From assembly GCA_002712305.1 (NCBI GenBank), contig PATE01000122.1:1-35772 (forward strand): a stretch of 35,772 bases of DNA, read 5' to 3'. A model generated the notes under the pieces. That model saw only the letters and a list, made by a program, of their open reading frames with translations, did not search any database and was not told the DNA's origin. The number at the start of each line of letters is the position of its first letter. Within the stretch, counting starts at the first letter, position 1. This document shows, one piece after another, positions 2,683-23,740 of this stretch. Source of the DNA: Gemmatimonadota bacterium (GTDB taxonomy: Bacteria > Latescibacterota > UBA2968 > UBA8231). The position numbers and the translations under genes were made by a program.

Positions 2683-4811
<2,129 letters not shown>

Positions 4812-5119
4812 AGCTCACACACTGTACGACGGCAGGGAGACAACGTAGTGCAGGGCATTACCCACTGTCTCCGTGCGCAGTTCACCGCCGTTGGCGGCGT
4901 AGACTTGCTCACCTGGCGCTCCCCATGTAGATCCATAGCGACCTTCTCTAGCGGGTGACGGTTGTGGGGCTGGGCCTACAACGAACTTGGCCCACATTCT
5001 GGACCTGGGTCCCGCAAAGGCCGTGCCATTGCACCTTTTGGCGATCTTTCTGTTCTTGGATTCATGACCTTCTCCCTCCCTTTTCCCGGGCGGCCCTTGC
5101 GGACGCCCCGTTCCGCTTC
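4812..5119 (-). other. Intergenic stretch with a possible eroded coding fragment
   Basis: About 300 nt separate the flippase gene from the secreted-protein operon. On the minus strand, 4815-4940 reads as well-behaved coding (GAPGEQVYAANGGELR ... HYVVSLPSYSV then stop), resembling the tail of an exported enzyme, but I do not recognise it and no body of the gene remains upstream. The operon promoter should also lie here; I see no strong -35/-10 pair. Confidence 0.3.
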
Positions 5120-6928
5120 ATGATCCGCCTCAGTTCTGTCCTCCTTCTGGTGATCGCTACCGCCGTGAACGCCATCGAGTTTGTCGGCGTCGGCGTCGGC
5201 GACGGGGCGCTATCGTGGGACCAGGCCAAGTCATCGTCGCGGTTCGTCACTGTCGAGGCCGACAGCATTTGGATGTGGGACATTGCCACGGAGGCCAATC
5301 TGACCCCTGGTCTGGCCGAGCGTGGCGGCTTCGCCCTCTACGCGGGCGAGACCGGGATTGACACCCTGCGCACGACGGCGCTCTTCGACGGCGACCTGAC
5401 GACCTACTTCGACCCGGACGAGAATGCCGCCATCGAGCGCTCGTCCGCCATCCTCGTGGATCTCGGCGGTACCTTCAACATCAACCGGGTGCGCTTTGTT
5501 CCGCGCCTCGACGTCATCCACCGCAACCGTTTCCTGCAGGAGTTTTCCCTGCGCTCGGCGCTGATCCTGCCCCTCGGTGGCGTCGATCTCTTACTCGAGC
5601 GCAGTCTGGCGCATTTTCTGGCGCCGAATGAAAATACCGAGCCCGTCGTCGACCTGCGGTTCAACTCCGTGAGCGCCCGTTTCGTGCAGCTGGTGCCGCT
5701 GACCGGTCGCGCCTGGGAGATTGCCGAGCTCGAGGTCTATAGCGACGGCACCGTGCCCCAAGGCGAGTATGTGTCCGTGCCGCTGCCGGCGAGGCAAGCG
5801 ACGCCGGTGTGGGGCCAGGTTCGTTACGAGGGCGGCAATCTGGCGCAAGCGCCGTTCGTCGTGCAGACCCGCACCGGGCCCGATCCCCACCCCGTCCTCC
5901 ACTTCATCAAGAACGGCGACGAGCTCGTGCCGATTGACGGGGACTCGTGGGCGACAACGCGACCCGGTCTGCAAGGTCCAAGGGAGCCGAACCCGGCGTG
6001 GAGTGGTTGGTCGACGGTAACCGAAGGCGCCGTGCGCTCGCCGTCACTGAACCGCTACCTGCAGTTCCGCGTGGCTCTGCCGGCGCCCGGCACCGGCCTG
6101 GGGCAGCTGCGCTTCGATTACAGCTTTCCCCCCATCGCCCGCGACCTGGCTGCCGAGATCTGGCCACGCACTGCCACCGCCGGTGTCGAAACCGACTTCA
6201 CCTTGTTCCTGGCAGCCGAGATGAAGACCTCCGGCGCCGTGCAGCGGCGGGATACGGGTTTTCGTCAGATCGAGGTGCGTACGAGCGTAGAGATCTCTCG
6301 TGTCGGCCCCGTGTTCGTCGACGACGAGGAGGTGTTCGCCACCGCCCAGGTCCAACCCGGCGTGGGCTTCAGCCTCAACTTGTGGGAGCGAGTCCTGAAG
6401 GACGGCAGCTTCCTGCAGATCGAGTTGACCGCCGCCGCTCTGCGTGACCGCACACAGTTCGAGGTGCGCGCCGTCGATCGCCGCTCCGACGTCGATGACG
6501 GACAGTCCGTCGCCTACCAGTTGGCGCGCCCTGCCGACATCGACGTTTCGACGCCGGGGGGTGGTCTCATCGTCGATCTCGACGCTGACGGCGGCGACGG
6601 GCGGACCGAACTGCTGGCCAACATACGCCTCCACAGCCCGGTGATCACCCCCAATGGGGACGGTGCCAACGACGCACTACAGGTGTCGCTGTCGTTGCTC
6701 AAGCTCCTGGAGCCTGCGCGCCTGCGACTCGAGATCTTTGGCCTCGACGGCCAGCGTGTGCGCCGCGCGGTGGATAGGCCAAGCACCAGCGGCAATCTGA
6801 CCTTGAGCTGGGATGGCCGCGATGACGCCGGCCGGGTGGTGCCGCCGGGCAGCTACGTCTACCAGATTCGAGTTGACGCCGATGCGTCCAACGCCCGCCA
6901 TCACGGCATCGTGAGTGTTGCGTATTGA
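5120..6928 (+). CDS. Secreted discoidin-like protein with NGDG/FlgD-Ig C-terminal domain (paralogue A)
   Basis: A 602-aa exported protein. The start is placed at the ATG at 5120, which opens a signal peptide (MIRLSSVLLLVIATAVNA); the frame upstream is not coding-like. Residues about 80-210 resemble an F5/8 type C (discoidin) fold: an ALFDGDLTTYFDP loop, then ILVDLGGTFNINRVRFVPR, ending in IAELEVYSDG. A second beta-rich part follows, then a block shared with its paralogues (FPPIARDLAAEIWP, GVETDFTLFL, FRQIEVRTS). From residue 510 comes TPNGDGAND, and a FlgD-Ig/CHU_C-like domain with WDGRDDAGRVVPPGSYVYQI, ending in SVAY. It is the first gene of the operon; its stop overlaps the TTG start of the next (TTGA). 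No ribosome-binding site is seen. Binding of a glycan or surface polymer is an inference from the discoidin-like part. Confidence 0.8.
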   Translation: MIRLSSVLLLVIATAVNAIEFVGVGVGDGALSWDQAKSSSRFVTVEADSIWMWDIATEANLTPGLAERGGFALYAGETGIDTLRTTALFDGDLTTYFDPDENAAIERSSAILVDLGGTFNINRVRFVPRLDVIHRNRFLQEFSLRSALILPLGGVDLLLERSLAHFLAPNENTEPVVDLRFNSVSARFVQLVPLTGRAWEIAELEVYSDGTVPQGEYVSVPLPARQATPVWGQVRYEGGNLAQAPFVVQTRTGPDPHPVLHFIKNGDELVPIDGDSWATTRPGLQGPREPNPAWSGWSTVTEGAVRSPSLNRYLQFRVALPAPGTGLGQLRFDYSFPPIARDLAAEIWPRTATAGVETDFTLFLAAEMKTSGAVQRRDTGFRQIEVRTSVEISRVGPVFVDDEEVFATAQVQPGVGFSLNLWERVLKDGSFLQIELTAAALRDRTQFEVRAVDRRSDVDDGQSVAYQLARPADIDVSTPGGGLIVDLDADGGDGRTELLANIRLHSPVITPNGDGANDALQVSLSLLKLLEPARLRLEIFGLDGQRVRRAVDRPSTSGNLTLSWDGRDDAGRVVPPGSYVYQIRVDADASNARHHGIVSVAY

Positions 6929-9438
6929 ATCCCCTACGCGCCGCTGTTGCACTTCCGCTACTCGCCGCCTTCGTCGCAGCCCAGGAGCCTGAGGAGCCCA
7001 CTGATCCTGGCTACCGAGTCATCGGTAGCCAGGTCGTCGTCGAGGGCGCCGAGCAGTGGGCGGCGTGGCAGGCGCCGGAGGGTGCGGCTGTCGTCGGCGA
7101 GGACGGTGTGTCGCCGCGGTTACTGCAGCGGCGCACGAATGTGACCCTGAACGCCGAGAGATTCTTCTTCTACGACGGCGACCAGGACACAATCTACGGC
7201 GGCGTACGCATCGCCCGTTCGGGTGCCGAGACTGCAGAGCTCGCCATCGATGGCGACCCGACCACGTACTGGGAGCCGGATCCTACGACCCCGGTGGACG
7301 ACTGGGTTCTGGAGGTCTACCTCGGCCGTTCCGTCGTCGTCGAGCAGGTCATCGTGCGTTTTGCTGCCGAAGGGGAGGGGGACCCGTTCCTCAAATTCCG
7401 GGTGCGGTTGTCTGACGGAGACGATTTCATCGAGCGCACCAGCGTGGTCGAGTACTTCCGCGCCGGCCAGGTGAACATCGCCAACAAAGACCAGCGCGAG
7501 TTTGTGTTCGACGTGCGCCCGCAGCGTCCGGTGCCAGATGGCGTCGCCGGCGAGGTCGTACAGTTCGTCCGCATCGAGGCCCTGGACTCTGATGGTCCAC
7601 GGGGACGGGAAGTCGATGCGTATGCGTATGCCGCCTTGCCCGCAGAGGAAAAAGGGGCCATCGACTATTTTCGGCGCACCGTGACCGGGCGCGTATTGCC
7701 GGTGGACGAGCTCACCTGGATCGAACTACCCGATGAGGAGCGCGGCCCAGTCAGCTATTTCCGCTGGGAGCGGCCCCGGCTGGCCGAGATCGAGGTCGTC
7801 AGTCCGGGCGAGAACATCGTACTGCTTACTCAGGAGCGAATCAATCGGGAACAAGGCGTCCTGGGTAACGTTCTGCGTGCCCTCACCACCGATGGCAATG
7901 TCGGCTCGGAGTCCTTGATCAAGCCCTACGACCCGCTGCGCGATCGCAACCAGCTCGAGGTCGACCTGGGCGCCAAATACTGGCTCGACCGGATCCGCAT
8001 GGTGGCGTTGCACAAGCCGATGCGGGCGTACCAGGTGCTGCTCTCGGACGGCTCCTTCGATCCGAGCGGTGAACGGCTTTGGAACGAGCTGGATGAGCGC
8101 GCCAATCGCGAGCGCTACCTGCAACTGCAGGAAGGATTTCCGCTGCAGGAAGTCCGCTACATCCAGATCCGGGCGCTGCAGTTGCTGGGCACCGAGACGG
8201 AGGCAGGCACCCTGGCCGAGTTGCAGGCCTACGGCGAGGGCTACGTATCCGAAATCGAGCTGACATCGCCCGTCATCAAGCTCGGGGCGTCGCGTATGTT
8301 CACGAGCCTTTCGTGGGACGGCGAGGCGCCGAATGAAACCCGAATCGACATCCGCACGCGCGCCGGCGATGATCTGACCATCCTCCACCGCTACTTTGAC
8401 AGGTGGGGTCGCGAGATCAGCCAGGAGGCCTGGGAGGCGGTGCGCAACGAGTTCCGTGGTCGCGTGGAGGAGGTGGAGCTACCCGGCCCCCGATGGAGCA
8501 GCTACAGCGAGCTCTATCGTGAGTCGGGGGAGATGTTCCGGTCACCGAGCCCGCGGCGCTTCGCCCTCGTCAACGTCCGCCTGAGGACGACGAACCCGCA
8601 GCGCCGGGCCCTGATCCGTCGCCTGCGAATCGGACTGGCGCCGCCGCTTGTGGATCAGACCTTCGCCGAGATCACCCCGTCGCGGGACGTCGAGCCCGGG
8701 GTCGACACGGAGTTCACGATGTACCTACGGCCGCAGTTCGCCTCAGGCGATCCTGGCTTCGACGGCATCGGTCTGCGCTCGACCTCGACGGCGCCGGTGG
8801 AGCTGCTCGGTCTGCGCGCCGCCTCCGAGAGGCTGCTAAGCTTCGGCACCGGGCAGGATCTGCTGGAAGCGTCCAACATCGAGTCTGTCGACGGCGGTGT
8901 CGACATTACCCTGCCGGAGGCGGAGCGGCGCTCCGGCAGGATCTACGAGCTTCGTTTCCGAACCCAAGTCTTCCTCTCGGGAACGACGTTCCAGGCGCTG
9001 CTGTCGTTGGCCTCGCGGCCTGGCGTGGTGCAGCAGGCCAGTGACGGGGACGCAGTTGATTTTGTGCAGAGCCAGACCCTTGTCGCTCTGTCCCAGCTGC
9101 GTCCCGGCCGTCTGCTCGATGCTCTGCAGATCGAACCGCCGGTGTTCACGCCCAATGGGGATGGCATCAACGACAACACCATCGTCGGCATCGACGTTTT
9201 CCAGGTGCGCGGCAGCAACGCCCGCATCGGTGTCGAAGTGTTCGATCTGACCGGCGCCCGGGTCCGCGACCTGTCGCAAACCGCGCCGTCGCCGAGTGGT
9301 CGCCACCAGATCCTCTGGGATGGCCGCGACGACGGTGGCCGTCTTGTGGCGCCCGGCATCTACGTCGTGCGCGCCGCGATCGATGTCGACGCGTCGACCT
9401 CCGCTCAACGCACGGGGCTCATCCATGTCGCCTACTAG
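6925..9438 (+). CDS. Secreted protein with two discoidin-like regions and NGDG/FlgD-Ig C-terminus (paralogue B)
   Basis: An 837-aa exported protein, apparently started by TTG at 6925, which overlaps the previous stop; the signal peptide MNPLRAAVALPLLAAFVAAQ follows at once and no ATG is available nearby. Two discoidin-like regions are visible: AIDGDPTTYWEPDP with WVLEVYLGRSVVVEQVIVRF (about residues 105-145), and a second with ALTTDGNVGSE, LEVDLGAKYWLDRIRMVAL and LAELQAYGEG (about residues 310-445). The shared block (PPLVDQTFAEITPSRDVEPG, then TEFTMYL and GFDGIGLRS) follows. TPNGDGIND starts near 742 and the FlgD-Ig-like end carries WDGRDDGGRLVAPGIYVV and HVAY. It is the longest of the four paralogues, mainly through the duplicated discoidin part. 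The next gene starts inside its last 14 nt. Confidence 0.8.
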   Translation: MNPLRAAVALPLLAAFVAAQEPEEPTDPGYRVIGSQVVVEGAEQWAAWQAPEGAAVVGEDGVSPRLLQRRTNVTLNAERFFFYDGDQDTIYGGVRIARSGAETAELAIDGDPTTYWEPDPTTPVDDWVLEVYLGRSVVVEQVIVRFAAEGEGDPFLKFRVRLSDGDDFIERTSVVEYFRAGQVNIANKDQREFVFDVRPQRPVPDGVAGEVVQFVRIEALDSDGPRGREVDAYAYAALPAEEKGAIDYFRRTVTGRVLPVDELTWIELPDEERGPVSYFRWERPRLAEIEVVSPGENIVLLTQERINREQGVLGNVLRALTTDGNVGSESLIKPYDPLRDRNQLEVDLGAKYWLDRIRMVALHKPMRAYQVLLSDGSFDPSGERLWNELDERANRERYLQLQEGFPLQEVRYIQIRALQLLGTETEAGTLAELQAYGEGYVSEIELTSPVIKLGASRMFTSLSWDGEAPNETRIDIRTRAGDDLTILHRYFDRWGREISQEAWEAVRNEFRGRVEEVELPGPRWSSYSELYRESGEMFRSPSPRRFALVNVRLRTTNPQRRALIRRLRIGLAPPLVDQTFAEITPSRDVEPGVDTEFTMYLRPQFASGDPGFDGIGLRSTSTAPVELLGLRAASERLLSFGTGQDLLEASNIESVDGGVDITLPEAERRSGRIYELRFRTQVFLSGTTFQALLSLASRPGVVQQASDGDAVDFVQSQTLVALSQLRPGRLLDALQIEPPVFTPNGDGINDNTIVGIDVFQVRGSNARIGVEVFDLTGARVRDLSQTAPSPSGRHQILWDGRDDGGRLVAPGIYVVRAAIDVDASTSAQRTGLIHVAY

Positions 9439-12181
9439 GAGCCTGCGACATGCGGCCTGCGGGTTGGCGGCACTGGCCTTCGCCCTGCAATTCTGTGCCG
9501 GCCAGGTCTGGGGTCAGTCGTACGGCGCCCAGGCGACGTCCCTTCTGGCCCAGCGCTCCTCCGAAGAGTTGTCGCCGCAGTTCGAGGTGGTCTACACGAC
9601 CCCGGCCCTCTACAAGTGGTACGGTCCACGGCATCTGTCCACCGGCTATCAGCGGCCGTGGTACCAGGATCAGCTGACCAACTATGCTCAGCAGCACTAC
9701 CAGAGGTACCTCAACGCCGGCTTGGAAGGGGACGAGTGGCACGACGCCTTCGGTCGGCGCCTGGGAAGGGGCTGGCTTGTCTATACGTGGGAGCAGGAGC
9801 AACCCGGGCGTAACGGCTCGCGGATTCGGCAGGGTAGCTTTTACAGCAGTGTCTTCGGGCGCCTTGTCATCTCCTCCGATACCGCCGGTGGCGGCACGTA
9901 CCGGCTTATGGTTGGTTCCGAACTCGACGCGCGGTTGACACCGATGACGTTTTTCAAGCCCAACTTCGAAGGCGTCCGGCTCGACTATGCCACAGACCGC
10001 CTGACGTCGACCTTCCTCTTCTCCCGGCCCTCCGACCCCGGCAACGCGGGTCGCACCAACTTCACCCATGTCGCAGCCGGCCACGCCGAGGTGCAGCTGT
10101 TCGATCTGGCCAAGATCGGCGCCACCTACGTTAACGCCCACACCGCCAACTCGGAGGACGAGTTCAGCGTCGGCAACCCCCTTGCCGGGGTGCTGACGAC
10201 GGCGCAGAACCAGGCCCTGTCGACCCTGTGGGTCCAGGTCCGTGACGACTCACCCGTGGACGGCAGCGGTGGGGCTACGGTGTTTGGCCACGACATCATC
10301 CTTGTCGACACCGCCGGCGTCGAGCTACGCGGCTCGGAGATCGATTTTCTGCCCGCCATCGCCGGTGCCCGGTTGCGCGATGGCGCCCTCGTCGCCGATG
10401 GCTCGGAGATGATGCTGTTCGAGTATGACCTGGCCAGCCTGCGCGACAAAGGCGTCGACCCAGAATCGATCACCGCCGCCACCATCGAGATGGCATTGGC
10501 CAACGACTACCATGTCGAGATGGCTTCCGACCTGCAGACCAACGGCGAGCGGTTCAATCCAGAGACCGTGTTGCTCACCTACGCACGAGCTGAGGGCAAC
10601 GTGCAGGACGACAGCAACGGAGAGTTGCTGCGCCTCGGTTACGGTCTACCGACCGGCAACGAGCTCATCGGCCTGAACTGGGACCTCGTGAATTGGGGCG
10701 GGCTGTCGGTGCAGGGCGAGGTGGTGCTCAACCGGCAGCATCGGCGATACCCCAACACGCGCACTGAGGATCGTCACGAGATGGTGCGCCGGGCGCATGC
10801 CGCCTACGGCATCGCCGCTTACCAGCGGCTGCCCATCAACCTGTTCGTCGAAGGCTTCCACATCGCCGATGCCTACTCGACGAGCTTCTGGCTCCCTCAG
10901 GCGGGAGGTATCGTTCAATATGAGGCGCCGGTACCGATGTTGTACGAGTTCGTCGACGACGACGACGATCACGACTCCATTCCGGAATGGCAGCGGCCCT
11001 TCCAGCGCACCTCCCAGGGCATCGCCTGGCCGGGTTACGACGTGGATGGCGACTTCCTGCATGACTACAACCAGAACAACAACCCGCGGCCACCGTGGAC
11101 GGTGTCGATTCCCGGGCGGCCGTCGAGCGTTCCGACGAACCGCAACCGCAACCTGATCCCTGATTATGAGGAGTCGTTCCTGCGGTTTCGCTCTGACCGG
11201 CCCGAGTTTCTCTTCGGCGTGGATATGAACCACAACGGCACGCCCGACCCCTTTGAGAACGACCTTCTACCCGACTACCCCTACAAGGCCGATCACCAGG
11301 GTATCAACGCCTACGCCAGGTGGTCGCCGACACCGCAGATACGGCTATTGGCGGGACGCCAGGACATGGGGCTTATCTCCGGTGACGGCAACACCGAGTC
11401 GTGGTACGCCATGCTGACCTGGACCCGCCGACTGGGACGCGGCGGCCGGCTGCGGGTGTTCGACTTCGGCGCGCTCGTGCAAGACGACATTCGCGACGAT
11501 CTGCAGACCTGGGTGCAACCCCTGGGCGCTGTCGGTCGCATGCGCGACGTGCGAGACCTGCTGGCGGCGCAGGATACCTGGCGCAACACGCTCTACATCG
11601 ACGCCGATCAGAGGTTGTCGGCAGGGCTGCGCCTATTCCACCGCCTCAAGTGGGAGAGCTGGTGGCAGCGCCGTGCGCGCCTTGAGGTCGCCGACGAGGA
11701 GGGGCGCATGCGCTCTGGCTTTCTTGGGATCATCAACAAGGGGGAGTGGACGATCCCCATCGGGCTCGGCGTCCTTGAGCCACGGGTGAAGTCCGAATTC
11801 AGGGCCGATCGGCCCTTCAGCACACGGCTGCCGCCGGCTCGCAGCCATGAGATGTCCGGCTATCTGATGTGGACACAGCCGATCTTTGCCGAGCAGACCT
11901 CCGTCAATTACTACGCCCGCTACGGTCGTCAGCTGTTCGACACCGAACTGCAGGTCGGCCTTGAGCTCGTCCGTTTCTGGATGCTTGAAGGCACGCGGCC
12001 AGACGTCGGCGAGGACTTCAATGGCCAGACCGTCGTGGCGCAGATCATCAACCGCGTCGGTTATCTCGGTTACCACCTGGTCACCCGGGCCGGTATTCAG
12101 TACGGGCGGCGGAACTTCGAAAGCATCGAGGACGAACGCACGTCAATGCTGTTTGTCACGATGAACGCAGGCCTCCAGTGA
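9425..12181 (+). CDS. Large outer-membrane-type protein with calcium-loop-like insert (OMP paralogue C)
   Basis: A 918-aa exported protein, started at the ATG at 9425, giving a signal peptide (about MSPTRSLRHAACGLAALAFALQFCAGQVWGQ). Much of the chain alternates polar and hydrophobic residues and is rich in Tyr/Trp/Arg, as expected of a beta-barrel. A shared N-terminal region has YKWYGPRHL, NYAQQHYQRYL, LTPMTFFKPNF. Around residues 510-615 lies an Asp/Asn-rich insert (DDDDDHDSIPEW, DVDGDFLHDYNQNNN, DMNHNGTPDPFEND, PDYPY) like thrombospondin type-3 or EF-hand calcium loops. The rest of the chain looks like barrel strands, although it does not end in the usual aromatic residue. It is a clear paralogue of the protein at 14121-16775. 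A dedicated OM partner for the preceding secreted proteins is the best guess from context; I know no named family. Confidence 0.75.
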   Translation: MSPTRSLRHAACGLAALAFALQFCAGQVWGQSYGAQATSLLAQRSSEELSPQFEVVYTTPALYKWYGPRHLSTGYQRPWYQDQLTNYAQQHYQRYLNAGLEGDEWHDAFGRRLGRGWLVYTWEQEQPGRNGSRIRQGSFYSSVFGRLVISSDTAGGGTYRLMVGSELDARLTPMTFFKPNFEGVRLDYATDRLTSTFLFSRPSDPGNAGRTNFTHVAAGHAEVQLFDLAKIGATYVNAHTANSEDEFSVGNPLAGVLTTAQNQALSTLWVQVRDDSPVDGSGGATVFGHDIILVDTAGVELRGSEIDFLPAIAGARLRDGALVADGSEMMLFEYDLASLRDKGVDPESITAATIEMALANDYHVEMASDLQTNGERFNPETVLLTYARAEGNVQDDSNGELLRLGYGLPTGNELIGLNWDLVNWGGLSVQGEVVLNRQHRRYPNTRTEDRHEMVRRAHAAYGIAAYQRLPINLFVEGFHIADAYSTSFWLPQAGGIVQYEAPVPMLYEFVDDDDDHDSIPEWQRPFQRTSQGIAWPGYDVDGDFLHDYNQNNNPRPPWTVSIPGRPSSVPTNRNRNLIPDYEESFLRFRSDRPEFLFGVDMNHNGTPDPFENDLLPDYPYKADHQGINAYARWSPTPQIRLLAGRQDMGLISGDGNTESWYAMLTWTRRLGRGGRLRVFDFGALVQDDIRDDLQTWVQPLGAVGRMRDVRDLLAAQDTWRNTLYIDADQRLSAGLRLFHRLKWESWWQRRARLEVADEEGRMRSGFLGIINKGEWTIPIGLGVLEPRVKSEFRADRPFSTRLPPARSHEMSGYLMWTQPIFAEQTSVNYYARYGRQLFDTELQVGLELVRFWMLEGTRPDVGEDFNGQTVVAQIINRVGYLGYHLVTRAGIQYGRRNFESIEDERTSMLFVTMNAGLQ

Positions 12182-14121
12182 TGCGACGTCACGTCAACCG
12201 ATTGCGCTGGTTAGGCTGCCTGGTGCTGGCCCTGTGGGCCGCCGGGGCGCAGGCTCAGTTGCGCACCTACATCCTCGGCGAGCGTGCCGAGCCGTGGTCG
12301 GAGGGGGGCGGCCTCGTCGAGCCGGTGCGCAACATCGGGAGGACCTTCAGCGCTCGCCTGGACACCGGTAATGTGCCGGAAGACGACATCGAGTTCGTCG
12401 CTCGTCCGGGCTGGATCAGTCCGCGCTTCTTCGATGGCCAGACCAACATCGCCAGCCTCGTCATCGACAGTCCGGGCCGGGTGCGGGCGCCGAACTCTCA
12501 GAACATTTCCCGGGCACTGCTAAATCAACAGCTCGAGGGCATCGTCAACGGCGACCACGACATCGCCTACGAGCGCAAGCCGACGACGTTCGTGCCCGAG
12601 ATGCCGGCCTTCGGCATCTGGATCATCCTCGATTTCGGTCGTCAGGTGGGCGTCAACCGGCTGAGGTTCTACCCGCGCAATACCGTCGAGGCGACACCGC
12701 AGACGCCGTTCGAGAACGACTTCCTACGCGGCTTCGAACTGTGGATCAATCCCGAGATCACGAACTCCGCCGAAGGTCGGCCCGATGTCCTCGTCGAACG
12801 CCGTCCCAACAACGACGATGCCGTCGTCGAGATCGACATCGATCCCCGCTATGTTCGTCTCATCAAGCTGCGCTCGCTAACGGAGACCCCCTTCGAGATC
12901 GACGAGCTCGAGGTCATCGGCTCCGGCTACATGGGCCGGGGGACCTGGTTCTCCGACCTCATCGACCTGGGAGGACCGGCGACCGTGGGCCCTGTGCGCT
13001 GGCGGGAGCGTGTCGTCGGCGAGGAGGCATTCTCTAGCACCCAGGTGCGGGTCCGCACCGGAGATGACGACACGCCGCTGCTGTTCGAGCAACGTGGCGC
13101 CGCCTGGGATCCGTTCGACCCGAATCCCCCCGGCTTCACCGAGGTGGATGCCGAGACCTACTGGAGTCTCGACATCACCGAGCGCGGTGAGGTCGTCGAC
13201 GACGTCGATCACTGGAGCGCGTGGAAGACGGTGGACAACGGCGGTCTAATCGGTGGCCGGCTGCCCCGCCAGTTCGTGCAGTTCGAGATCGGCTTTGCGG
13301 GGCGCATCGCCGATACCCGACAACTCGACTGGCTGCAGTTCGATTATCTGCAGCCACCGATCGCCGACACCTTGCGAGCCGAGGTCTTTCCTCGCCGGGC
13401 ACCGGTCGAGCGGCGGGCCACCTTCCGGTACGCGGTGCAACTACGGCGCAACGGCGACATCCTCGGCTTCGACGAGCTCGAGGTCGATACCACAGTGCCG
13501 GTGGAGAACATCCGTGACGTCACCGTCAACGATATTCCCGTGCCCTTCGAAGTGGCATACGCGCGGGATGACGCCTTCCGCCTGTTATTGCCCCTCATCG
13601 ACGGCGACGGCGATGTTCTCGAATTTGCTTTCGACCTGCCTGTGTTCCGGTTCGGCACGACGTTCTCGGGGCGCGTCGTCAACAGCCGCTTCGAGCGTGT
13701 GCCGCAGCGGCTCGAGGCCGGAAACGCCAATGACTTCGGCCCCGGCGACGACGATGATCTGTCCAACCTGTTCGTGTCGATCCCGGAGGAGCGCATCGGT
13801 AAGCTGGTGGGTACGATCGCTCTGTCCGACAAAGTCATCACGCCGAACGGAGACGGGATCAACGACGATGTGCACGTGCAGTTTAACCTGCTGCAACTCG
13901 TCGATGTGGCACCGGTGCGTTTCGAGGTCTTCGACCTGGCCGGTCGGCGCGTCGCCAACCTCGACCTTGGCGAGCGGTCCCTGGGACCGGCCGACTTCCG
14001 CTGGGACGGCACCGGCTCTGATGGCCGGCTGTTGACACCCGGCACCTACGTGTGGAGGCTGCTAGTAGCGGCCGATGCCTTTGACGAGGAGCATATGGGT
14101 ATCCTGGCGGTCGCATACTGA
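12181..14121 (+). CDS. Secreted discoidin-like protein with NGDG/FlgD-Ig C-terminus (paralogue D)
   Basis: A 646-aa exported protein. The ATG at 12181 overlaps the preceding stop (TGATG); a GTG just before it (12178) is an alternative start. Signal peptide: MRRHVNRLRWLGCLVLALWAAGAQA. A discoidin-like part spans about residues 70-245 (WIILDFGRQVGVNRLRFYPR, then FEIDELEVIGSGYMGRG). The shared block has LQFDYLQPPIADTLRAEVFP, ATFRYAVQL and GFDELEVDTT. TPNGDGINDD starts at 554 and the end has FDLAGRRVANLD, WDGTGSDGRLLTPGTYVWRL and AVAY. It stands directly before a second ~900-aa OMP gene, the same order as paralogue B with OMP C. This repeats the cargo+OMP pair. Confidence 0.8.
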   Translation: MRRHVNRLRWLGCLVLALWAAGAQAQLRTYILGERAEPWSEGGGLVEPVRNIGRTFSARLDTGNVPEDDIEFVARPGWISPRFFDGQTNIASLVIDSPGRVRAPNSQNISRALLNQQLEGIVNGDHDIAYERKPTTFVPEMPAFGIWIILDFGRQVGVNRLRFYPRNTVEATPQTPFENDFLRGFELWINPEITNSAEGRPDVLVERRPNNDDAVVEIDIDPRYVRLIKLRSLTETPFEIDELEVIGSGYMGRGTWFSDLIDLGGPATVGPVRWRERVVGEEAFSSTQVRVRTGDDDTPLLFEQRGAAWDPFDPNPPGFTEVDAETYWSLDITERGEVVDDVDHWSAWKTVDNGGLIGGRLPRQFVQFEIGFAGRIADTRQLDWLQFDYLQPPIADTLRAEVFPRRAPVERRATFRYAVQLRRNGDILGFDELEVDTTVPVENIRDVTVNDIPVPFEVAYARDDAFRLLLPLIDGDGDVLEFAFDLPVFRFGTTFSGRVVNSRFERVPQRLEAGNANDFGPGDDDDLSNLFVSIPEERIGKLVGTIALSDKVITPNGDGINDDVHVQFNLLQLVDVAPVRFEVFDLAGRRVANLDLGERSLGPADFRWDGTGSDGRLLTPGTYVWRLLVAADAFDEEHMGILAVAY

Positions 14122-16775
14122 TGACAAATCGGAACCACATCGCGGCGATCCTCGCCCTTTGTCTCCTTCTCGGCACGGCGACGACAGTGGCGGCCCAGGA
14201 CTACGGCGCGCGCCTGGGCACTGTCAAGCGCGGCGGCCGCGTCAGCTTCGAGCCCACCGGCCCCGGCGTGCTGTTCGATGCCCTCGATCCGGCTCTGCGC
14301 AAGTGGTATGTGCCGCAGGAGCTGTTCGCCGAGTACCAGTGGCGGCAGTGGGAATACTCCAACTACGCCCGGCAGAACTACCAGCGATACGTGTCGACGT
14401 CGCTGGAGGGGGACTACTGGTACGACGTGTACGGCAACCAGCTGACCCAGGGCTGGCTGATCTACGACTGGCGGCAGGAGAATCCGACCCCCTTTGGTAG
14501 CGTGCTGGAGAAGAGCGGCCAGTTCAGTTCATGGTTCTCATCGGTGGCCATCGCCTCCGATCACAAGGGGCAGTACCACTACTCTATCACCGTCGGCTCG
14601 CGAATCCGCACGACCCTGACGCCGATGACGTTCAGCAAGCCGAACTTCGATGGCATCCAGTGGGACTTCGTTTCCGACAAGCACGCCCTCACCCTGCTGT
14701 TGTCGCGCATCAGCGAGCCGAACTCGCCGACCTTCTTGCCGGAGGGGCTGACGAGCAACACAAATCTGTTCGGCGCGCGCGTGGAAGCGCGGGTGGGGGA
14801 TTTCGTCAAGGTTGGCGGCACCTTCGTCAACGCCCACCACTCGGTGACGCAGCTGGATGCCATCAACGGCGATGTGTTCTCCGGTGCCCTGGCGGAAGGG
14901 CAGAACTTCAGCGTCGTCGGCCGCGTACAGGCGCTGATCTCCGACGATTCACCGGACGACGGCGTGGGAGGCGGCGCGCTGTTCTCCTCTGACCTCGTCA
15001 TCGAGGACCTTGAGGGTCAGAGCTTCCGTGCCTCCGAGATCGGCTTCCGGCCGCTGGTGGAGGGTGGTTTCCAACGTCGAGGGTTCCTCGCTGCCGACGG
15101 CCACGAGGAGATCCTGCTGACCTACGACTTCAACGACCGAACCTACTCCGGTCCCGATCCCACCGAGATCCGCCGCGTCGAGATGGAGCTCGTCGTCGCC
15201 AACGACTACCGAATCGATATCGCCTCCGATCGTCAGCGCAATGCCAATGGTGCGGTCGTCTTCCTGCCCTACACCCGCGCTCGGGGCAACGTCAAAGACG
15301 GCTCCAACCAGCGTGTCCTGCGTTTCGACTACGGTGTGCCGACGGCGAACCAGATCGCTGGTTTCACCGTCGAGATGACAGACCTGAAGGGTGTCGATGG
15401 CTTCCTCGAGGTCAACGTCAACACCCGCTACCGCAAATATCCGAACCCCCACACGAAGCGTCACACCTCGGACAGCGATCGTGCCCTCGGCTGGCTCGCC
15501 AACCTGTCGCACAAGCGCTACCCCTGGTTCACTTTCTTCGAAGCCTTCGGCATGGATCCCGGCTACTCGACGTCGATCGTCACCATCGACAAGAGGGAGG
15601 GGGTACCCGACTACGACAACCAGCTCGAACTCTATGAGTTCGTCGCCGACAACGACGACGCCGACCAGTTCGCCGACCGCCGGCGCAAAGGATCGACGGC
15701 GGGCGACCGCGATGTTTTCCCCGGCCTCGATGAGAACAACGACCGCATCTGGGACTTCAACCAGAACGACAACAGGGACCGGCCCAACTTTCTGCCCGAC
15801 TGGGAAGAGCCATTCCTCCGCTATTACGCCGACCGGCCCGAGTTCCTTTTTGGCGTCGACGCCAACCACAACGGCACGGTGGACCGATTCGAGAACGACG
15901 ACGAGCCCGACTATCCCTATCGGCGAGACCAGGAGGGCTACAACGTCTACGGGGGGGTGCACCTGGGACCCGACGTGCGCTTCACGGTCGGTCGCATGCG
16001 GATCAAGCAGCTCTCCGACGACCGACACAACCGTGCCGTCTACGGACAACTCGTCGTCGACTTCAGGACCTCGGCCTATGGTCGGCTGCGGCTCTTCCAG
16101 GACCTTCGGCGTGTCCGCGACACGATCCGGGATGACCTGCTGCAGTGGGTGCAGCTGCCGAACACCCGTGGCAGCCTTCGTCTCGTCATCGATGAGCTGC
16201 CCGCCCAGGATACGTGGGTGAACAACACCTGGCTCGGCTGGGAGCACGAGCTCGTGCGTGGCCTGAAGCTCGACAACCGGATGAAGTGGCAGCTCCATCG
16301 CCAGCGAGACGAGGAGCTCGCTCTCGAGCTTCGCGGCCACCGCGAGGCTTCGTGGTTCTACGGACTCGTCAACAAGGCTGAGTACAGCCTGCAGCTCGGC
16401 ACATGGACCCTGCAGCCCCGCTGGAAGAGCGAGTGGCTGCAGAACACGCCGGTGCGCCGGTCGCTGCCCCGTCGTCACGAGCTCGACGAGTTGTTCATGC
16501 TTGTCGTTCGCCACCCCATCATGCAAAAGAGCTTCGTCGAGGGCGGCGTCGAGTACCAGCTGTTCAACCAGTTGAAGGACCCGGTCCCGCCGGGTGCCGA
16601 GCCCGATTTCACGGCGGTGACGACGACGGTGCAAATGACAAACCTCTCCGACTATCTCGGCTACCAGCTGACGACAACCCTCGGTCTGGAGGTCACCCGT
16701 CTCGACCTTCGCTTCGAGCCCACACAGACGCGGACCCGCGGGTTCCTGACGATCTATGCTGGCATCGAGCGCTAG
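14121..16775 (+). CDS. Large outer-membrane-type protein with calcium-loop-like insert (OMP paralogue E)
   Basis: An 884-aa exported protein; its ATG overlaps the preceding stop (TGATG). Signal peptide: MTNRNHIAAILALCLLLG, cut near AAQ. It aligns by eye over its length with the protein at 9425-12181: RKWYVPQELFAEYQWRQWEY, NYARQNYQRYV, TLTPMTFSKPNFDGI, SDDSPDDGVGGGALF, ELVVANDYRIDIASD. At about residues 515-600 it has the same Asp/Asn-rich insert (DENNDRIWDFNQNDN, then FLFGVDANHNGTVDRFEND, then PDYPY). The C-terminal third has repeated amphipathic strands and ends IYAGIER. Likely a beta-barrel of the outer membrane with a calcium-binding extracellular or periplasmic insert. Function unknown. 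Confidence 0.75.
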   Translation: MTNRNHIAAILALCLLLGTATTVAAQDYGARLGTVKRGGRVSFEPTGPGVLFDALDPALRKWYVPQELFAEYQWRQWEYSNYARQNYQRYVSTSLEGDYWYDVYGNQLTQGWLIYDWRQENPTPFGSVLEKSGQFSSWFSSVAIASDHKGQYHYSITVGSRIRTTLTPMTFSKPNFDGIQWDFVSDKHALTLLLSRISEPNSPTFLPEGLTSNTNLFGARVEARVGDFVKVGGTFVNAHHSVTQLDAINGDVFSGALAEGQNFSVVGRVQALISDDSPDDGVGGGALFSSDLVIEDLEGQSFRASEIGFRPLVEGGFQRRGFLAADGHEEILLTYDFNDRTYSGPDPTEIRRVEMELVVANDYRIDIASDRQRNANGAVVFLPYTRARGNVKDGSNQRVLRFDYGVPTANQIAGFTVEMTDLKGVDGFLEVNVNTRYRKYPNPHTKRHTSDSDRALGWLANLSHKRYPWFTFFEAFGMDPGYSTSIVTIDKREGVPDYDNQLELYEFVADNDDADQFADRRRKGSTAGDRDVFPGLDENNDRIWDFNQNDNRDRPNFLPDWEEPFLRYYADRPEFLFGVDANHNGTVDRFENDDEPDYPYRRDQEGYNVYGGVHLGPDVRFTVGRMRIKQLSDDRHNRAVYGQLVVDFRTSAYGRLRLFQDLRRVRDTIRDDLLQWVQLPNTRGSLRLVIDELPAQDTWVNNTWLGWEHELVRGLKLDNRMKWQLHRQRDEELALELRGHREASWFYGLVNKAEYSLQLGTWTLQPRWKSEWLQNTPVRRSLPRRHELDELFMLVVRHPIMQKSFVEGGVEYQLFNQLKDPVPPGAEPDFTAVTTTVQMTNLSDYLGYQLTTTLGLEVTRLDLRFEPTQTRTRGFLTIYAGIER

Positions 16776-16782
16776 GCACCAA

Positions 16783-18162
16783 ATGATGGCGACGTCGACG
16801 CGCGCAACTGTGGCCCACATCCTGTGCCTCGCGCTGCTGGCCCTCGCCGGCTGTGGCAGCGAAAGCTCGTTGCCGGCCCCCGTGGCACCGCCGGATCCGG
16901 GTCCGTCGCCCTTCGCTGATCCGGCACTCACGCAGGCGGTGCGCGGCGCCCTCGACCTCGACGCCCACGTGCCCTTTGCAGCTGAGGCGCTCGACAGTCT
17001 CAGCCAGCTGGTTGCCCGTGACCTGGAGATCACTAGCCTGGAGGGTCTCGATACACTGGCGTCGCTGCAGGTTCTCGACATCGGCAACAATCATATCGAT
17101 GATCTGGGGCCACTGTCGGGTCTATCGCAGTTGGTTCGGCTCGACGTCAGTAGCAATGCGCTAACATCGCTGACGCCGCTGCGCAACGTGCGCAGCCTGC
17201 AGATCGTGTTCGCCGAGCACAATCTGGTCACCGACGTGTCGCCGCTATTCTTCCTGCCTTTGCTGGAGCGTGTCGATCTGACCGGCAACCCGGTGCCGGC
17301 GATCCACCTGCTGCGATTGTCGGAGGGCGGTACCGAGGTACGCTACGGCGGCCTGTCGGAGATTGCCGTGCTCTGCGACGAGCCGCCTGTCGTGCGCAGC
17401 GGACGGTTGACCGTCGAGCGCCTGTTCGATCTTCTCAAGCTCCCCAACGGCAACCGCTGCCTCGATATCGACGGTAGCTTGACCCTGTCCAAGCTGCCGG
17501 TGGAGAATCTGCAAGACATTCGCACCCTGCGGCGTGTGGACGGCACGCTCCGTATCCGGCAGAACGCACAGCTGCTGGAGATCTCTGCATTGGCGAGCCT
17601 GTCGGAGGTGACTGGCGGCCTGCAGATCACGGAGAACCCCTTTCTGGAGAGCCTCGACGGCCTCGAGGCACTGGGAACGATCGGTGGCCGCCTGCAGATC
17701 CTCAACAATGCCGCGCTGGCTGACCTCGGTAGTTTCAGCAACCTCGGTCTGGCCAACGGCATCACGATCAGCGGCAACACCAACCTGCAGAGCCTCGAAG
17801 GCCTCGAGGCACTGGAGCAGATTCTCGGTTCCCTCGTCCTCAACGCCGCCGGCGTCACGTCGCTGGAGGGGCTGCACAACCTACGCACCATTCAGGGTGG
17901 CATCCTCAGCATCACAAACAACCCGGTCCTGACCGACCTCGGCGGCTTGCGCAGCCTGGAAACGATCTCGGGGGGCGTGACCATCCGCAGCAACGCCGAC
18001 CTGCAGACCCTGGCCGGATTCGATCCCGGCCGCGTTGGCGGCCGCATCATCTTCGAGAACAACCCGAGACTTTCCAGCACGGCGGTGGACGACTTCCGCG
18101 AACGCATGCGTCAGCGCGGCTTCGACGGTACCGTCATCAACCGCAACAACGGCGGTTCCTAG
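16783..18162 (+). CDS. Leucine-rich-repeat lipoprotein
   Basis: A 459-aa lipoprotein. Start at the ATG at 16783 (a second ATG follows directly at 16786), 7 nt after the preceding stop. The signal peptide ends in a clear lipobox, LLALAGC, with the lipidated Cys at residue 24 followed by Gly-Ser-Glu. A short Pro-rich linker follows. Residues about 85-170 hold internalin-like LRRs (LQVLDIGNNHIDDLGPLSGL, LVRLDVSSNALTSLTPLRNV). From about 220 to the end come irregular 20-24-residue repeats of the receptor-L type (GGLQITENPFLESLDGLEAL, GGRLQILNNAALADLGSF, GGVTIRSNADLQTLAGF). It is the last gene of the operon. A surface ligand-binding or scaffold role is inferred. Confidence 0.85.
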   Translation: MMATSTRATVAHILCLALLALAGCGSESSLPAPVAPPDPGPSPFADPALTQAVRGALDLDAHVPFAAEALDSLSQLVARDLEITSLEGLDTLASLQVLDIGNNHIDDLGPLSGLSQLVRLDVSSNALTSLTPLRNVRSLQIVFAEHNLVTDVSPLFFLPLLERVDLTGNPVPAIHLLRLSEGGTEVRYGGLSEIAVLCDEPPVVRSGRLTVERLFDLLKLPNGNRCLDIDGSLTLSKLPVENLQDIRTLRRVDGTLRIRQNAQLLEISALASLSEVTGGLQITENPFLESLDGLEALGTIGGRLQILNNAALADLGSFSNLGLANGITISGNTNLQSLEGLEALEQILGSLVLNAAGVTSLEGLHNLRTIQGGILSITNNPVLTDLGGLRSLETISGGVTIRSNADLQTLAGFDPGRVGGRIIFENNPRLSSTAVDDFRERMRQRGFDGTVINRNNGGS

Positions 18163-18422: not shown

Positions 18423-20459
18423 TCAGTAAGCGACGGCCACGGTTCCAGTCTCGACGAACGTGCCGGCTCCGAGGGCTGCCTCGATGCGGTACACGTAGAG
18501 TCCCGGCGCCACCAACTGACCAACCTCATCCCGTCCGTCCCAGCGAGCCAGCCCGGCCGAAGCGCCAGACCGTGTGTAGTCACCGGCAGAGACGCTGGGT
18601 AGTACGAGATGGCGCAGGGCACGTCCGCTGAGGTCGTGGATACCGACGACGATACGCACGGGTGCGATCGTCCGCGACAGGATAAATTCGATCACCGTTT
18701 CGTCATTCATGCCGTCGCCATTCGGCGTCAGTACAGGCGGGTTGGCGGCAACCCGTCCAAACCCGCGCTGAAGCGGATCGGTGGCCAGCAGGCGCCATCC
18801 GTCGTCGGTCGCTTCGGCGACGTTGAGGGGGTCGTCGGATTCCGGCGCGTACAGCCAACTGCGGAACAGGTGGGACAGCGTAAACGTGCTGGCCTCGAAG
18901 CCGATGCCCAGCTGTGTGTCCGTTGTGATCGGCGGGTCGAAGTGAAGGGACAGCATTTCATCCGTCGACTGCCATCCAGCCAACGACGCTCCGCCCAGGC
19001 CGAAGATCTCGCCGAGGATGGCGCCGGAGGGCACTGCCAGCTCCAGGCGCTCGACGCCGTCATCATCGGGTCCGAAGGCGAGATCTACGGTGTAGAGAAA
19101 CTCGGTGGCCACACCCATGGAAGCACCGTTCGGTGTTACTCGGCCCTGGGCAGAGGAGACGGCCACGTCCTGCGAGGAGAAGTCGATGGACAGCGAGCCC
19201 AGTGAGGGTGTCGTACGGTCGTCCAGCGTATTGAGGTTGACGCGGTACTGCACGAGGCTAGCCGGCTCCGGCGACGGAAACCACAAACCATCGCTCTCGG
19301 CGACGGCGCTCCAGCCGTCCTCTGGATCGACGAAGTCGGAAAGTTCGTTGCCGGTACGGAACTGCAGGGAGAGCGCCGTGTCGACCGGCAGGTCGGCATC
19401 CCAGTGCACGCGGCCGAAATTCTTGTGGCTCGCCGTGCCCAGATCCAGCGGCGGCGACACATACGTGCCCCGGTAGTTGTGGCCGGTACCATAAGCTTCG
19501 ACCTCGGCGACCAGGGGCTGGGAGTTGTCCGAGGCCTCGGTGACGACGACACGCAGGAATCTTATGACCTCGGGCTCGAAAGTCACCTCTGTCCGGGCGT
19601 ACTCGCGGATGTCCTGCAGGAAGCCGATCTCGACCCACTGGACGCGGTCGTGGCTTTGCTGCACGGAATAGCCGCGTATCGAGTTGCGCTTCCGCTCGGT
19701 GTCGTCGTCGCCAAAAGTGATGACGCGGACCTTGTGCATTCGTCGCGGTGAGCCCACGTCGATCTCGATCTTCTGGTCGATCGGGTCCGGCCGGCCGCGC
19801 CACGCGGTGCGCAGGTCACCGTCGGAGGTCTCCTCCGGGCTACGCGGGTTACCCAGGGCCAAGTTCACGCCATCCAACCGATTCAGACTCACGGAGCCGG
19901 CCATCGAGCCGATATCGACATCGCCTGAGAAACCGGCGAGCACGGTGGCGGACGAGCTCACCGGCACCGAGAGGCGGTCGCGGTCGATGGAACCCTCTTG
20001 CGGTACGGCCCAGTCGTCCGACTTGGAGACGTCGGCCGTCGTCCATGCCAAATCGGCCGGCTCCTTGTCCGAACAGTACCAGGGCACCAGGCTGCGGTCG
20101 GTGGTGGACGGCGCGACCAGCAGTGAGTCTTCCAGGTGTGCACGTAGATGGGTGAGGAAGCCGTTGCCGACGCCGAGGCCGTGGTTGACGACGCGTAGGG
20201 CCAGGTGGTTGACGCCGGAGTCAAGTTCGACGGGAACCGTCAGCACCTGTGTCCAGTCCGAGCCCGAGCCGACGTACTCACCATTGAACCAAACTTCGTA
20301 GCTGTCGACGGCGGCCACCTGCAAGGTGCCGGGCGCGGCCTGCTCCGTGGAAATCGTCCCACGATAGAAGGCAGTGCGGCGCCAGGTAGTCTGCTCCCAT
20401 GTGTCGGCATGGGCGGCCGTGGCGAGCACGAACAGGGCGAGAGAGATAGCACGAATCAT
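18423..20459 (-). CDS. Secreted discoidin-like protein with NGDG/FlgD-Ig C-terminus (paralogue G)
   Basis: A 678-aa exported protein. The start is set at the ATG at 20459, which opens the signal peptide MIRAISLALFVLATAAHA; an in-frame ATG at 20516 would prepend 19 non-signal residues. The N-terminus has a galactose-binding-like part (VAAVDSYEVWFNGEYVGSGS, then LALRVVNHG), an addition not seen in the operon paralogues. A discoidin-like part follows (TSDGDLRTAWRGRPDP, KIEIDVGSPRRMHKVRVITF, VAEVEAYGTG), then the shared block (GVATEFLYTVDL, VERLELAVPSG), TPNGDGMNDE at about 578, WDGRDEVGQLVAPGLYVYRI and AVAY at the end. It converges on the operon, separated by about 260 nt. No Shine-Dalgarno is visible. 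It probably belongs to the same surface system. Confidence 0.8.
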   Translation of the reverse strand: MIRAISLALFVLATAAHADTWEQTTWRRTAFYRGTISTEQAAPGTLQVAAVDSYEVWFNGEYVGSGSDWTQVLTVPVELDSGVNHLALRVVNHGLGVGNGFLTHLRAHLEDSLLVAPSTTDRSLVPWYCSDKEPADLAWTTADVSKSDDWAVPQEGSIDRDRLSVPVSSSATVLAGFSGDVDIGSMAGSVSLNRLDGVNLALGNPRSPEETSDGDLRTAWRGRPDPIDQKIEIDVGSPRRMHKVRVITFGDDDTERKRNSIRGYSVQQSHDRVQWVEIGFLQDIREYARTEVTFEPEVIRFLRVVVTEASDNSQPLVAEVEAYGTGHNYRGTYVSPPLDLGTASHKNFGRVHWDADLPVDTALSLQFRTGNELSDFVDPEDGWSAVAESDGLWFPSPEPASLVQYRVNLNTLDDRTTPSLGSLSIDFSSQDVAVSSAQGRVTPNGASMGVATEFLYTVDLAFGPDDDGVERLELAVPSGAILGEIFGLGGASLAGWQSTDEMLSLHFDPPITTDTQLGIGFEASTFTLSHLFRSWLYAPESDDPLNVAEATDDGWRLLATDPLQRGFGRVAANPPVLTPNGDGMNDETVIEFILSRTIAPVRIVVGIHDLSGRALRHLVLPSVSAGDYTRSGASAGLARWDGRDEVGQLVAPGLYVYRIEAALGAGTFVETGTVAVAY

Positions 20460-20599
20460 GGAAGGAAGATACGAAGGCGCGTCAAACGCGCTCTGTGGTA
20501 CATCGACGAAGAGCATGCCCAGCTCGTGCCTCTGAGTGCCGAGGTGGTTGATCAGCTTCTTCGTCTACGGTAGCGCCTCACGTGGGTGCCTCGAGATTT

Positions 20600-23535: not shown

Positions 23536-23740
23536 GCGCCGGATGGTGATCAAACGAAACGCGCCCGGCCTCCTTGTCGGTGATGGTAGCATGTCTGAAC
23601 GAAGTCAGGACAGGCGGGCAGGGTCAAGCGACCCGCGGGCGGGGCCTGGCCTTGACCGGCGCCAGTCCACCGTTCGACTATATGCGAGCCCGCCCCAGTT
23701 CCTTCCTGCAGGTGAATCTCCTTCACCCGGAGGCCATCCC
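23536..23740. promoter_or_regulatory. Divergent promoter region
   Basis: The dehydrogenase gene (minus) and the transpeptidase gene (plus) start on opposite sides of this 205-nt stretch, so both promoters must lie here. I cannot name -35/-10 boxes. The only clear signal is ggagg at 23729-23733, the ribosome-binding site of the transpeptidase. Confidence 0.45.

Follow-up and report, generated by a model that had tools for sequence, protein, structure and literature searches.

Large outer-membrane proteins encoded next to candidate type IX secretion cargo in Latescibacterota: a possible counterpart to SprF

Barrels of the PorP/SprF family, which are paired with type IX secretion system (T9SS) cargo carrying a type B C-terminal domain (CTD), are the closest precedent for the gene pairs described here (PMC9143113, PMC12618676). 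As in the pairs SprB-SprF and PG1035-PorP, the gene for an outer-membrane protein (OMP) lies directly downstream of a gene for cargo of the CHU_C class, and in both cases the pairs are paralogous and stand apart from type A cargo. The Latescibacterota OMPs differ from PorP/SprF in being three times larger and in having about 23-24 predicted strands rather than 14, and their partners differ from PorP/SprF cargo in that the CTD ends in Tyr.

Gene order at the locus and in its relatives

The window, which is the whole stretch of DNA that was analysed, is one 35.8-kb contig from a 4.77-Mb genome that is 91% complete. A sequence-only reading of this DNA had assumed a Bacteroidota setting, which has to be corrected: the closest loci among the matches listed are up to 93% identical and belong to Latescibacterota-type MAGs, several of them labelled Gemmatimonadetes at NCBI. 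Latescibacterota is a bacterial phylum that has received little study, and we found no paper that treats Latescibacter together with the T9SS. The central genes form a plus-strand run in which each gene overlaps the next at its end, from the first of three proteins of the type here called NGDG to a leucine-rich repeat (LRR) protein. The features are as follows.

4955..6928, plus strand: NGDG protein 1, 657 aa in the ORF list, although translation probably begins close to 5120; CHU_C/FlgD-type CTD; ends GIVSVAY
6925..9438, plus strand: NGDG protein 2, 837 aa, encoded immediately 5' of OMP 1; F5/8-type domain; FlgD_ig/CHU_C CTD; ends GLIHVAY
9425..12181, plus strand: large OMP 1, 918 aa, with a signal peptide and of no known family
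12178..14121, plus strand: NGDG protein 3, 647 aa, encoded immediately 5' of OMP 2; CHU_C 29.6 bits; ends GILAVAY
13810..14118, plus strand: CTD of NGDG protein 3, residues 545-647 (ITPNGDGINDD...LTPGTYVWRL...LAVAY); CHU_C 34.5 bits for the CTD alone
14121..16775, plus strand: large OMP 2, 884 aa, a predicted barrel of about 23-24 strands
14850..15329, plus strand: beta-sandwich insert of OMP 2, residues 244-403, between barrel strands in the AlphaFold2 model
15558..15929, plus strand: Asp/Asn-rich (Ca2+-binding-like) loop of OMP 2, residues 480-603, the most conserved segment of the family and probably external
16756..18162, plus strand: lipoprotein-like LRR protein, 468 aa, with LRR_4 and Recep_L_domain by Pfam; a recurrent downstream gene
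18423..20516, minus strand: NGDG protein 4, 697 aa; F5/8 domain; ends GTVAVAY

The window thus holds, as had been claimed, two OMP paralogues of about 900 aa (36% identity over 907 aligned positions, E 2e-174), and each directly follows an NGDG gene, with overlaps of 14 bases (NGDG protein 2 and OMP 1) and 1 base (NGDG protein 3 and OMP 2). Both OMPs start with a signal-peptide-like N-terminus; translation of OMP 1 is taken to begin with the ATG codon at 9425, although the ORF list gives a longer frame that opens with GTG at 9296. Members of the LRR protein cluster lie directly 3' of an OMP in 12 cases. Just 5' of the operon is an IS3-type transposase gene (rve integrase core; 3050-4015, plus strand) beside a putative membrane protein gene (4008-4811), and at 21028-23592 on the minus strand a glucose/sorbosone dehydrogenase-like domain is fused to an SO2930-type diheme cytochrome c, with a T9SS tail of type A that scores 33 bits with TIGR04183 (cut-off 23).

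The architecture of the NGDG proteins consists of a signal peptide, a galactose-binding-like F5/8 domain, more beta-sandwich regions and a CHU_C-type CTD with a Tyr-terminated strand. Two of the window proteins score over the Pfam cut-off of 27 bits for CHU_C (PF13585). NGDG protein 1 does so at 31.8 bits, with an F5/8-type domain below its Pfam cut-off; NGDG protein 2 reaches 30.2 bits for FlgD_ig (cut-off 27) and stays below the CHU_C cut-off at 22.9. All 133 CTDs in the set match CHU_C at E 0.01, and 124 of them match TIGR04131 at the same threshold, the window member scoring 22.9 bits against a curated cut-off of 35 for that model. The AlphaFold model of NGDG protein 3 (mean pLDDT 92) has C5a peptidase, PorU, CBM32/discoidin and Ig folds among its fold matches, and profile comparison gave matches to FlgD and F5/8-type chains.

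With each species represented by a single genome, a scan returned at least 468 OMP relatives, of which the best 80 were kept. In the 86 loci compared, the gene directly upstream of the OMP encodes an NGDG protein in 88 cases; 20 other OMPs are the second or third of a tandem array, eight are neither, and eight are cut by or too near a contig end. The tail residue of the 88 upstream proteins is Tyr in 87 (the "VAY" tail) and Phe in one, and none of them is of type A. Proteins with a type A domain (YPNPFN...LL(K/R)), of which 12 of 12 match TIGR04183, do occur nearby in the loci, but never directly upstream of an OMP. The pairing of NGDG and OMP genes is therefore far beyond chance. In a complete relative, 800 kb sampled at even steps without selection contained 15 NGDG CTDs, about as many type A CTDs (18) and five OMPs, four of which follow an NGDG gene; extrapolation gives roughly 120 NGDG proteins and 40 OMPs for that genome, and some genomes appear to hold dozens of OMP copies. 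The host genome has about a dozen OMP paralogues, every one clustered with NGDG genes.

The pairing is not strictly one to one, since NGDG proteins are in excess (15 vs five), 20 OMPs are in tandem, and some OMPs have a gene for a CBM9-like protein upstream in place of an NGDG gene. OMPs without an NGDG gene upstream were seen in loci L073, L082, L086, L091 and L093, with the CBM9-like gene in that place in L073 and L086. In the distant genome G011 (L209:191-1694), an NGDG gene in two frames, with a CTD ending ILVK, is followed by a gene for a PorV-family barrel and then by the OMP gene, so that an OMP need not replace a shuttle.

An undescribed family of large barrels

Neither window OMP has a significant match in Pfam, NCBIfam, PHROGs or the PDB sequences, the single sub-threshold Pfam match being one to OMP 1 at E 0.04. 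They appear to form an undescribed family, nameless in Pfam and NCBIfam. The remark of the sequence-only reading that the OMPs are unlike SprF is borne out by PF11751 and TIGR03519, the PorP/SprF models, neither of which matches them; nor do they fall by sequence into a known unrelated family such as the porins or the TonB receptors, Pfam and NCBIfam finding no TonB plug or TonB-receptor domain in them. Pfam also finds no usher domain, and FimD is a weak fold match only.

The AlphaFold2 model of OMP 2 (pLDDT 79.1, pTM 0.76) has about 23-24 barrel strands as counted from the DSSP output. Its insert (residues 244-403) is mostly of high pLDDT and made of short non-barrel strands, its placement being taken from the strand list. 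In the loop at residues 480-603, 46 of 124 columns are at least 90% conserved among 71 OMPs, and the loop is kept in distant paralogues too. Judged from the alternation of short turns and long loops in the model, insert and loop probably both lie outside the cell. An usher-like topology, with its insert and about 24 strands, was considered and rejected because the DSSP strand count locates the insert outside the cell, at about the junction of strands 7 and 8, a position that we take to be unlike that in ushers.

The best matches in a fold search with OMP 2 were SlpA/SDBC (E 5e-8), followed by MtrB (3e-6), FimD (5e-5) and porins; FadL/PorV chains were absent from the top 50. TM values reached no more than 0.25 relative to the query (0.41 relative to the target), and at values this low only the description "large outer-membrane barrel" is supported. 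The leading position of SlpA/SDBC, likewise a large barrel, together with the numerous paralogues, could suggest that OMPs and NGDG proteins form a surface lattice as in Deinococcus. We consider this improbable, as the alignment is not rigid (TM 0.15-0.20, rmsd above 20 A), no SLH domain is reported by Pfam in the OMPs, and operon-specific pairs would be odd for a lattice.

Two further T9SS components were compared directly. The OMPs share with the SprA/Sov translocon the character of a large T9SS outer-membrane barrel, but profile comparison found no homology (hhalign probability 0.3%) and the host has a SprA of its own. Nor was homology to PorV found: the FadL-type shuttles PorV and PorQ are T9SS outer-membrane barrels of the same genome, but they have about 320 aa against about 900, and profile comparison found no similarity.

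The type IX system of the host and its phylum

The SprA of the host scores 656 bits with TIGR04189 (cut-off 200) and its PorU 606 bits (cut-off 420); an adjoining PorZ-like gene reaches 210 (below the cut-off of 260), and five PorV-family matches are over their cut-off. No PorP/SprF was found in the host genome by PF11751 or TIGR03519, and GldM (PF12081), from the motor, was not detected there, which counts against the reading preferred below. Among 64 genomes of the phylum, none has a TIGR03519 match over the curated cut-off, 39 have OMPs and 60 have SprA, including 36 of the 39 with OMPs, so the T9SS core is more widespread in the phylum than the NGDG-OMP addition to it. The same counts bear on the suggestion that the OMP itself translocates NGDG proteins, in the manner of an usher or a two-partner system and independently of SprA. 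The beta-sandwich insert within the barrel and the weak FimD matches are in keeping with it, but the CTDs are of the T9SS class, SprA is nearly always present and Pfam gives no usher match, and we regard this suggestion as very improbable indeed.

Full-length NGDG proteins were found at E 2.7e-32 or better in exactly the 39 genomes with OMPs, and at best at 4.1e-15 in the other 25. Two complete genomes without OMPs had, in 800 kb, no clear NGDG/VAY CTD apart from one weak and unlikely match, compared with 15 in 800 kb of an OMP-bearing genome. The OMPs are present in six families (f1 and f5-f9) and absent from four (f2-f4 and f10); as the distribution follows families, few independent events lie behind the co-occurrence.

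We also considered whether the OMPs replace PorP/SprF, with near mutual exclusion between the two, as PF11751 matches occur in 14 of 25 OMP-less genomes, all of one family, vs two of 39 with OMPs. This was dropped because NF033709, the PorV model, gives far higher scores to the three PF11751 matches examined, two of which pass its cut-off while the third narrowly misses it; these three fall far below the TIGR03519 cut-off or do not match TIGR03519. Other T9SS-like arrangements were seen in the collection. L162:7508-13604 and L023 show PorZ-like and PorU genes on the contig of a three-OMP cluster, some 10 kb 5' of it; at L164:6586-10180 a cargo-like protein with an FlgD-type tail is directly followed by two PorV-family genes; and at L211:4376-10980, in the OMP-less family f4, genes for a SusC-like protein with a TonB plug, a protein with the tail HIEKFIVVR and a PorV-family member stand in a row, possibly as a cargo-shuttle arrangement.

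On the linkage to CHU_C-type CTDs and the lack of a PorP/SprF match, the OMPs occupy the position of SprF without being SprF. The comparison holds for gene order and CTD class and not for family, since the OMPs fail the tests of sequence and of predicted fold. In the strict sense of SprF, the OMP could act as a shuttle or export factor specific to its cargo, receiving NGDG proteins from SprA and serving their secretion, not their retention. The gene order and the exclusive link to one CTD class resemble the type B/sprF pattern (PMC12618676), and PorP/SprF is missing; however, the known shuttles are FadL-type barrels of 14 strands (PMC9143113) to which an OMP of about 23-24 strands is unrelated, a PorV-family barrel is encoded beside NGDG protein and OMP in G011, and the region that co-varies best with the OMP is not the CTD. 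This role for the OMP is in our opinion quite unlikely.

Coupled divergence, neighbouring genes and a proposed role

Distances between OMPs and distances between their adjacent NGDG proteins are correlated (79 pairs, r 0.56; no more than 0.22 in any of 999 within-genome shuffles), and within genomes the value is 0.465 vs 0.29. Duplication of whole operons would explain such coupled divergence without contact between the two proteins. By region of the NGDG protein, the within-genome r is 0.56 (residues 27-130), 0.55 (131-250), 0.45 (251-390), 0.58 (391-535) and 0.28 (CTD), so the CTD tracks OMP divergence least, and the use of a mirror-tree by domain as a pointer to CTD recognition failed. A plain alternative for the low value of the CTD is saturation of its short distances. 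As type B signals may require up to 235 residues in addition to the core CTD (PMC12618676), the high r of residues 391-535 would fit recognition close to the CTD.

Genes that recur in the 86 loci include those for PpiC/SurA-type prolyl isomerases (47 loci), secreted CBM9-like proteins some 300 aa long (45 loci) and DUF6785-type membrane proteins (23 loci); in a number of loci the gene directly 3' of the OMP encodes a PMT_2-TPR glycosyltransferase-like protein. The clusters were built by BLAST linkage and took their names from the few members that were scanned; the TPR cluster is heterogeneous. Since a peptidyl-prolyl isomerase was found with SprA in Flavobacterium (PMC9143113), the isomerase fits OMP biogenesis and T9SS export alike. 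The PMT_2 and TPR proteins, which resemble protein O-mannosyltransferases, lie directly 3' of OMPs at L053:9965-12199, L060:6465-8663, L073:12684-14909 and L079:11872-13818, and glycosylation of the OMP or the NGDG protein is possible. A C-terminal tail of the form TWGxIKxxF or similar is common to the CBM9-like proteins at L021:11611-12471, L045:12704-13693, L046:12562-13419 and L047:12931-13791, possibly as a further sorting or anchoring tail.

These neighbours and the region-wise divergence make nutrient uptake the main rival to an anchoring role. The OMP would then be a channel or receptor of large size, with NGDG and CBM9-like proteins as surface glycan-binding lids delivered by a T9SS that does nothing else, and DUF6785 as a possible inner-membrane step, in likeness to SusCD-type systems, where an outer-membrane barrel is also encoded with a surface glycan-binding-like protein. 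The F5/8 domains of the NGDG proteins, the frequency of CBM9-like and DUF6785-type genes, the porins and TonB-type receptors among the weak fold matches and the closer tracking of the OMP by non-CTD regions all agree with uptake. SusCD-type systems differ, however, in that the OMPs have no TonB plug or receptor domain and are paired with T9SS-type cargo instead of a SusD lipoprotein; the literature found shows no function for DUF6785, whose transport role is a guess, and uptake would not require linkage to one CTD class. Uptake is unlikely on balance, if less so than a shuttle.

Because the linkage is tied to CTD class, anchoring is our first choice, namely that the OMP is the dedicated surface partner and anchor of NGDG proteins exported by the T9SS, to which we give a probability of roughly 45%. 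The NGDG proteins would be type IX secretion cargo exported through the SprA translocon of the host, and the large OMP encoded downstream would form a surface complex with the NGDG protein or proteins of its operon. The OMP would most likely keep these proteins on the cell, as SprF does SprB and PorP does PG1035 in Bacteroidota, and its conserved loop may lie outside the cell and contribute to the interface. The facts are in favour of a surface unit in which NGDG protein and OMP are dedicated to each other and which the T9SS feeds. The earlier proposal of a cargo-specific, SprF-like partner stands only in part: a cargo-type CTD, the presence of a T9SS, the SprF position, an OMP unrelated to PorP/SprF, linkage to CHU_C-type and not type A domains, and the lack of curated PorP/SprF in the phylum speak for it, while the weak tracking of the OMP by the CTD, the intervening PorV-family barrel in G011 and neighbours that allow nutrient uptake speak against it. 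We suggest more tentatively, as a possibility on the doubtful side, that another class of outer-membrane partner arose in Latescibacterota, unrelated to the first and dedicated to cargo with a Tyr-terminated form of the type B T9SS signal. It would consist of barrels of about 24 strands with an external Asp/Asn-rich domain, present in dozens of copies in some genomes, and would stand in for the missing PorP/SprF.

How the T9SS recognises type B cargo and how this cargo is retained is still to be settled, and work so far has used the PorP/SprF barrels of Bacteroidota. An OMP that is unrelated and far larger, yet encoded at the same place, would offer an independent test of the features that such a partner needs, and the locus points to a T9SS in another phylum with a different set of outer-membrane partners. 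The OMP family has no name in the domain collections even though some genomes seem to carry so many copies, and, as its members sit in the place of SprF, they may represent a second way of holding type IX proteins on the cell surface.
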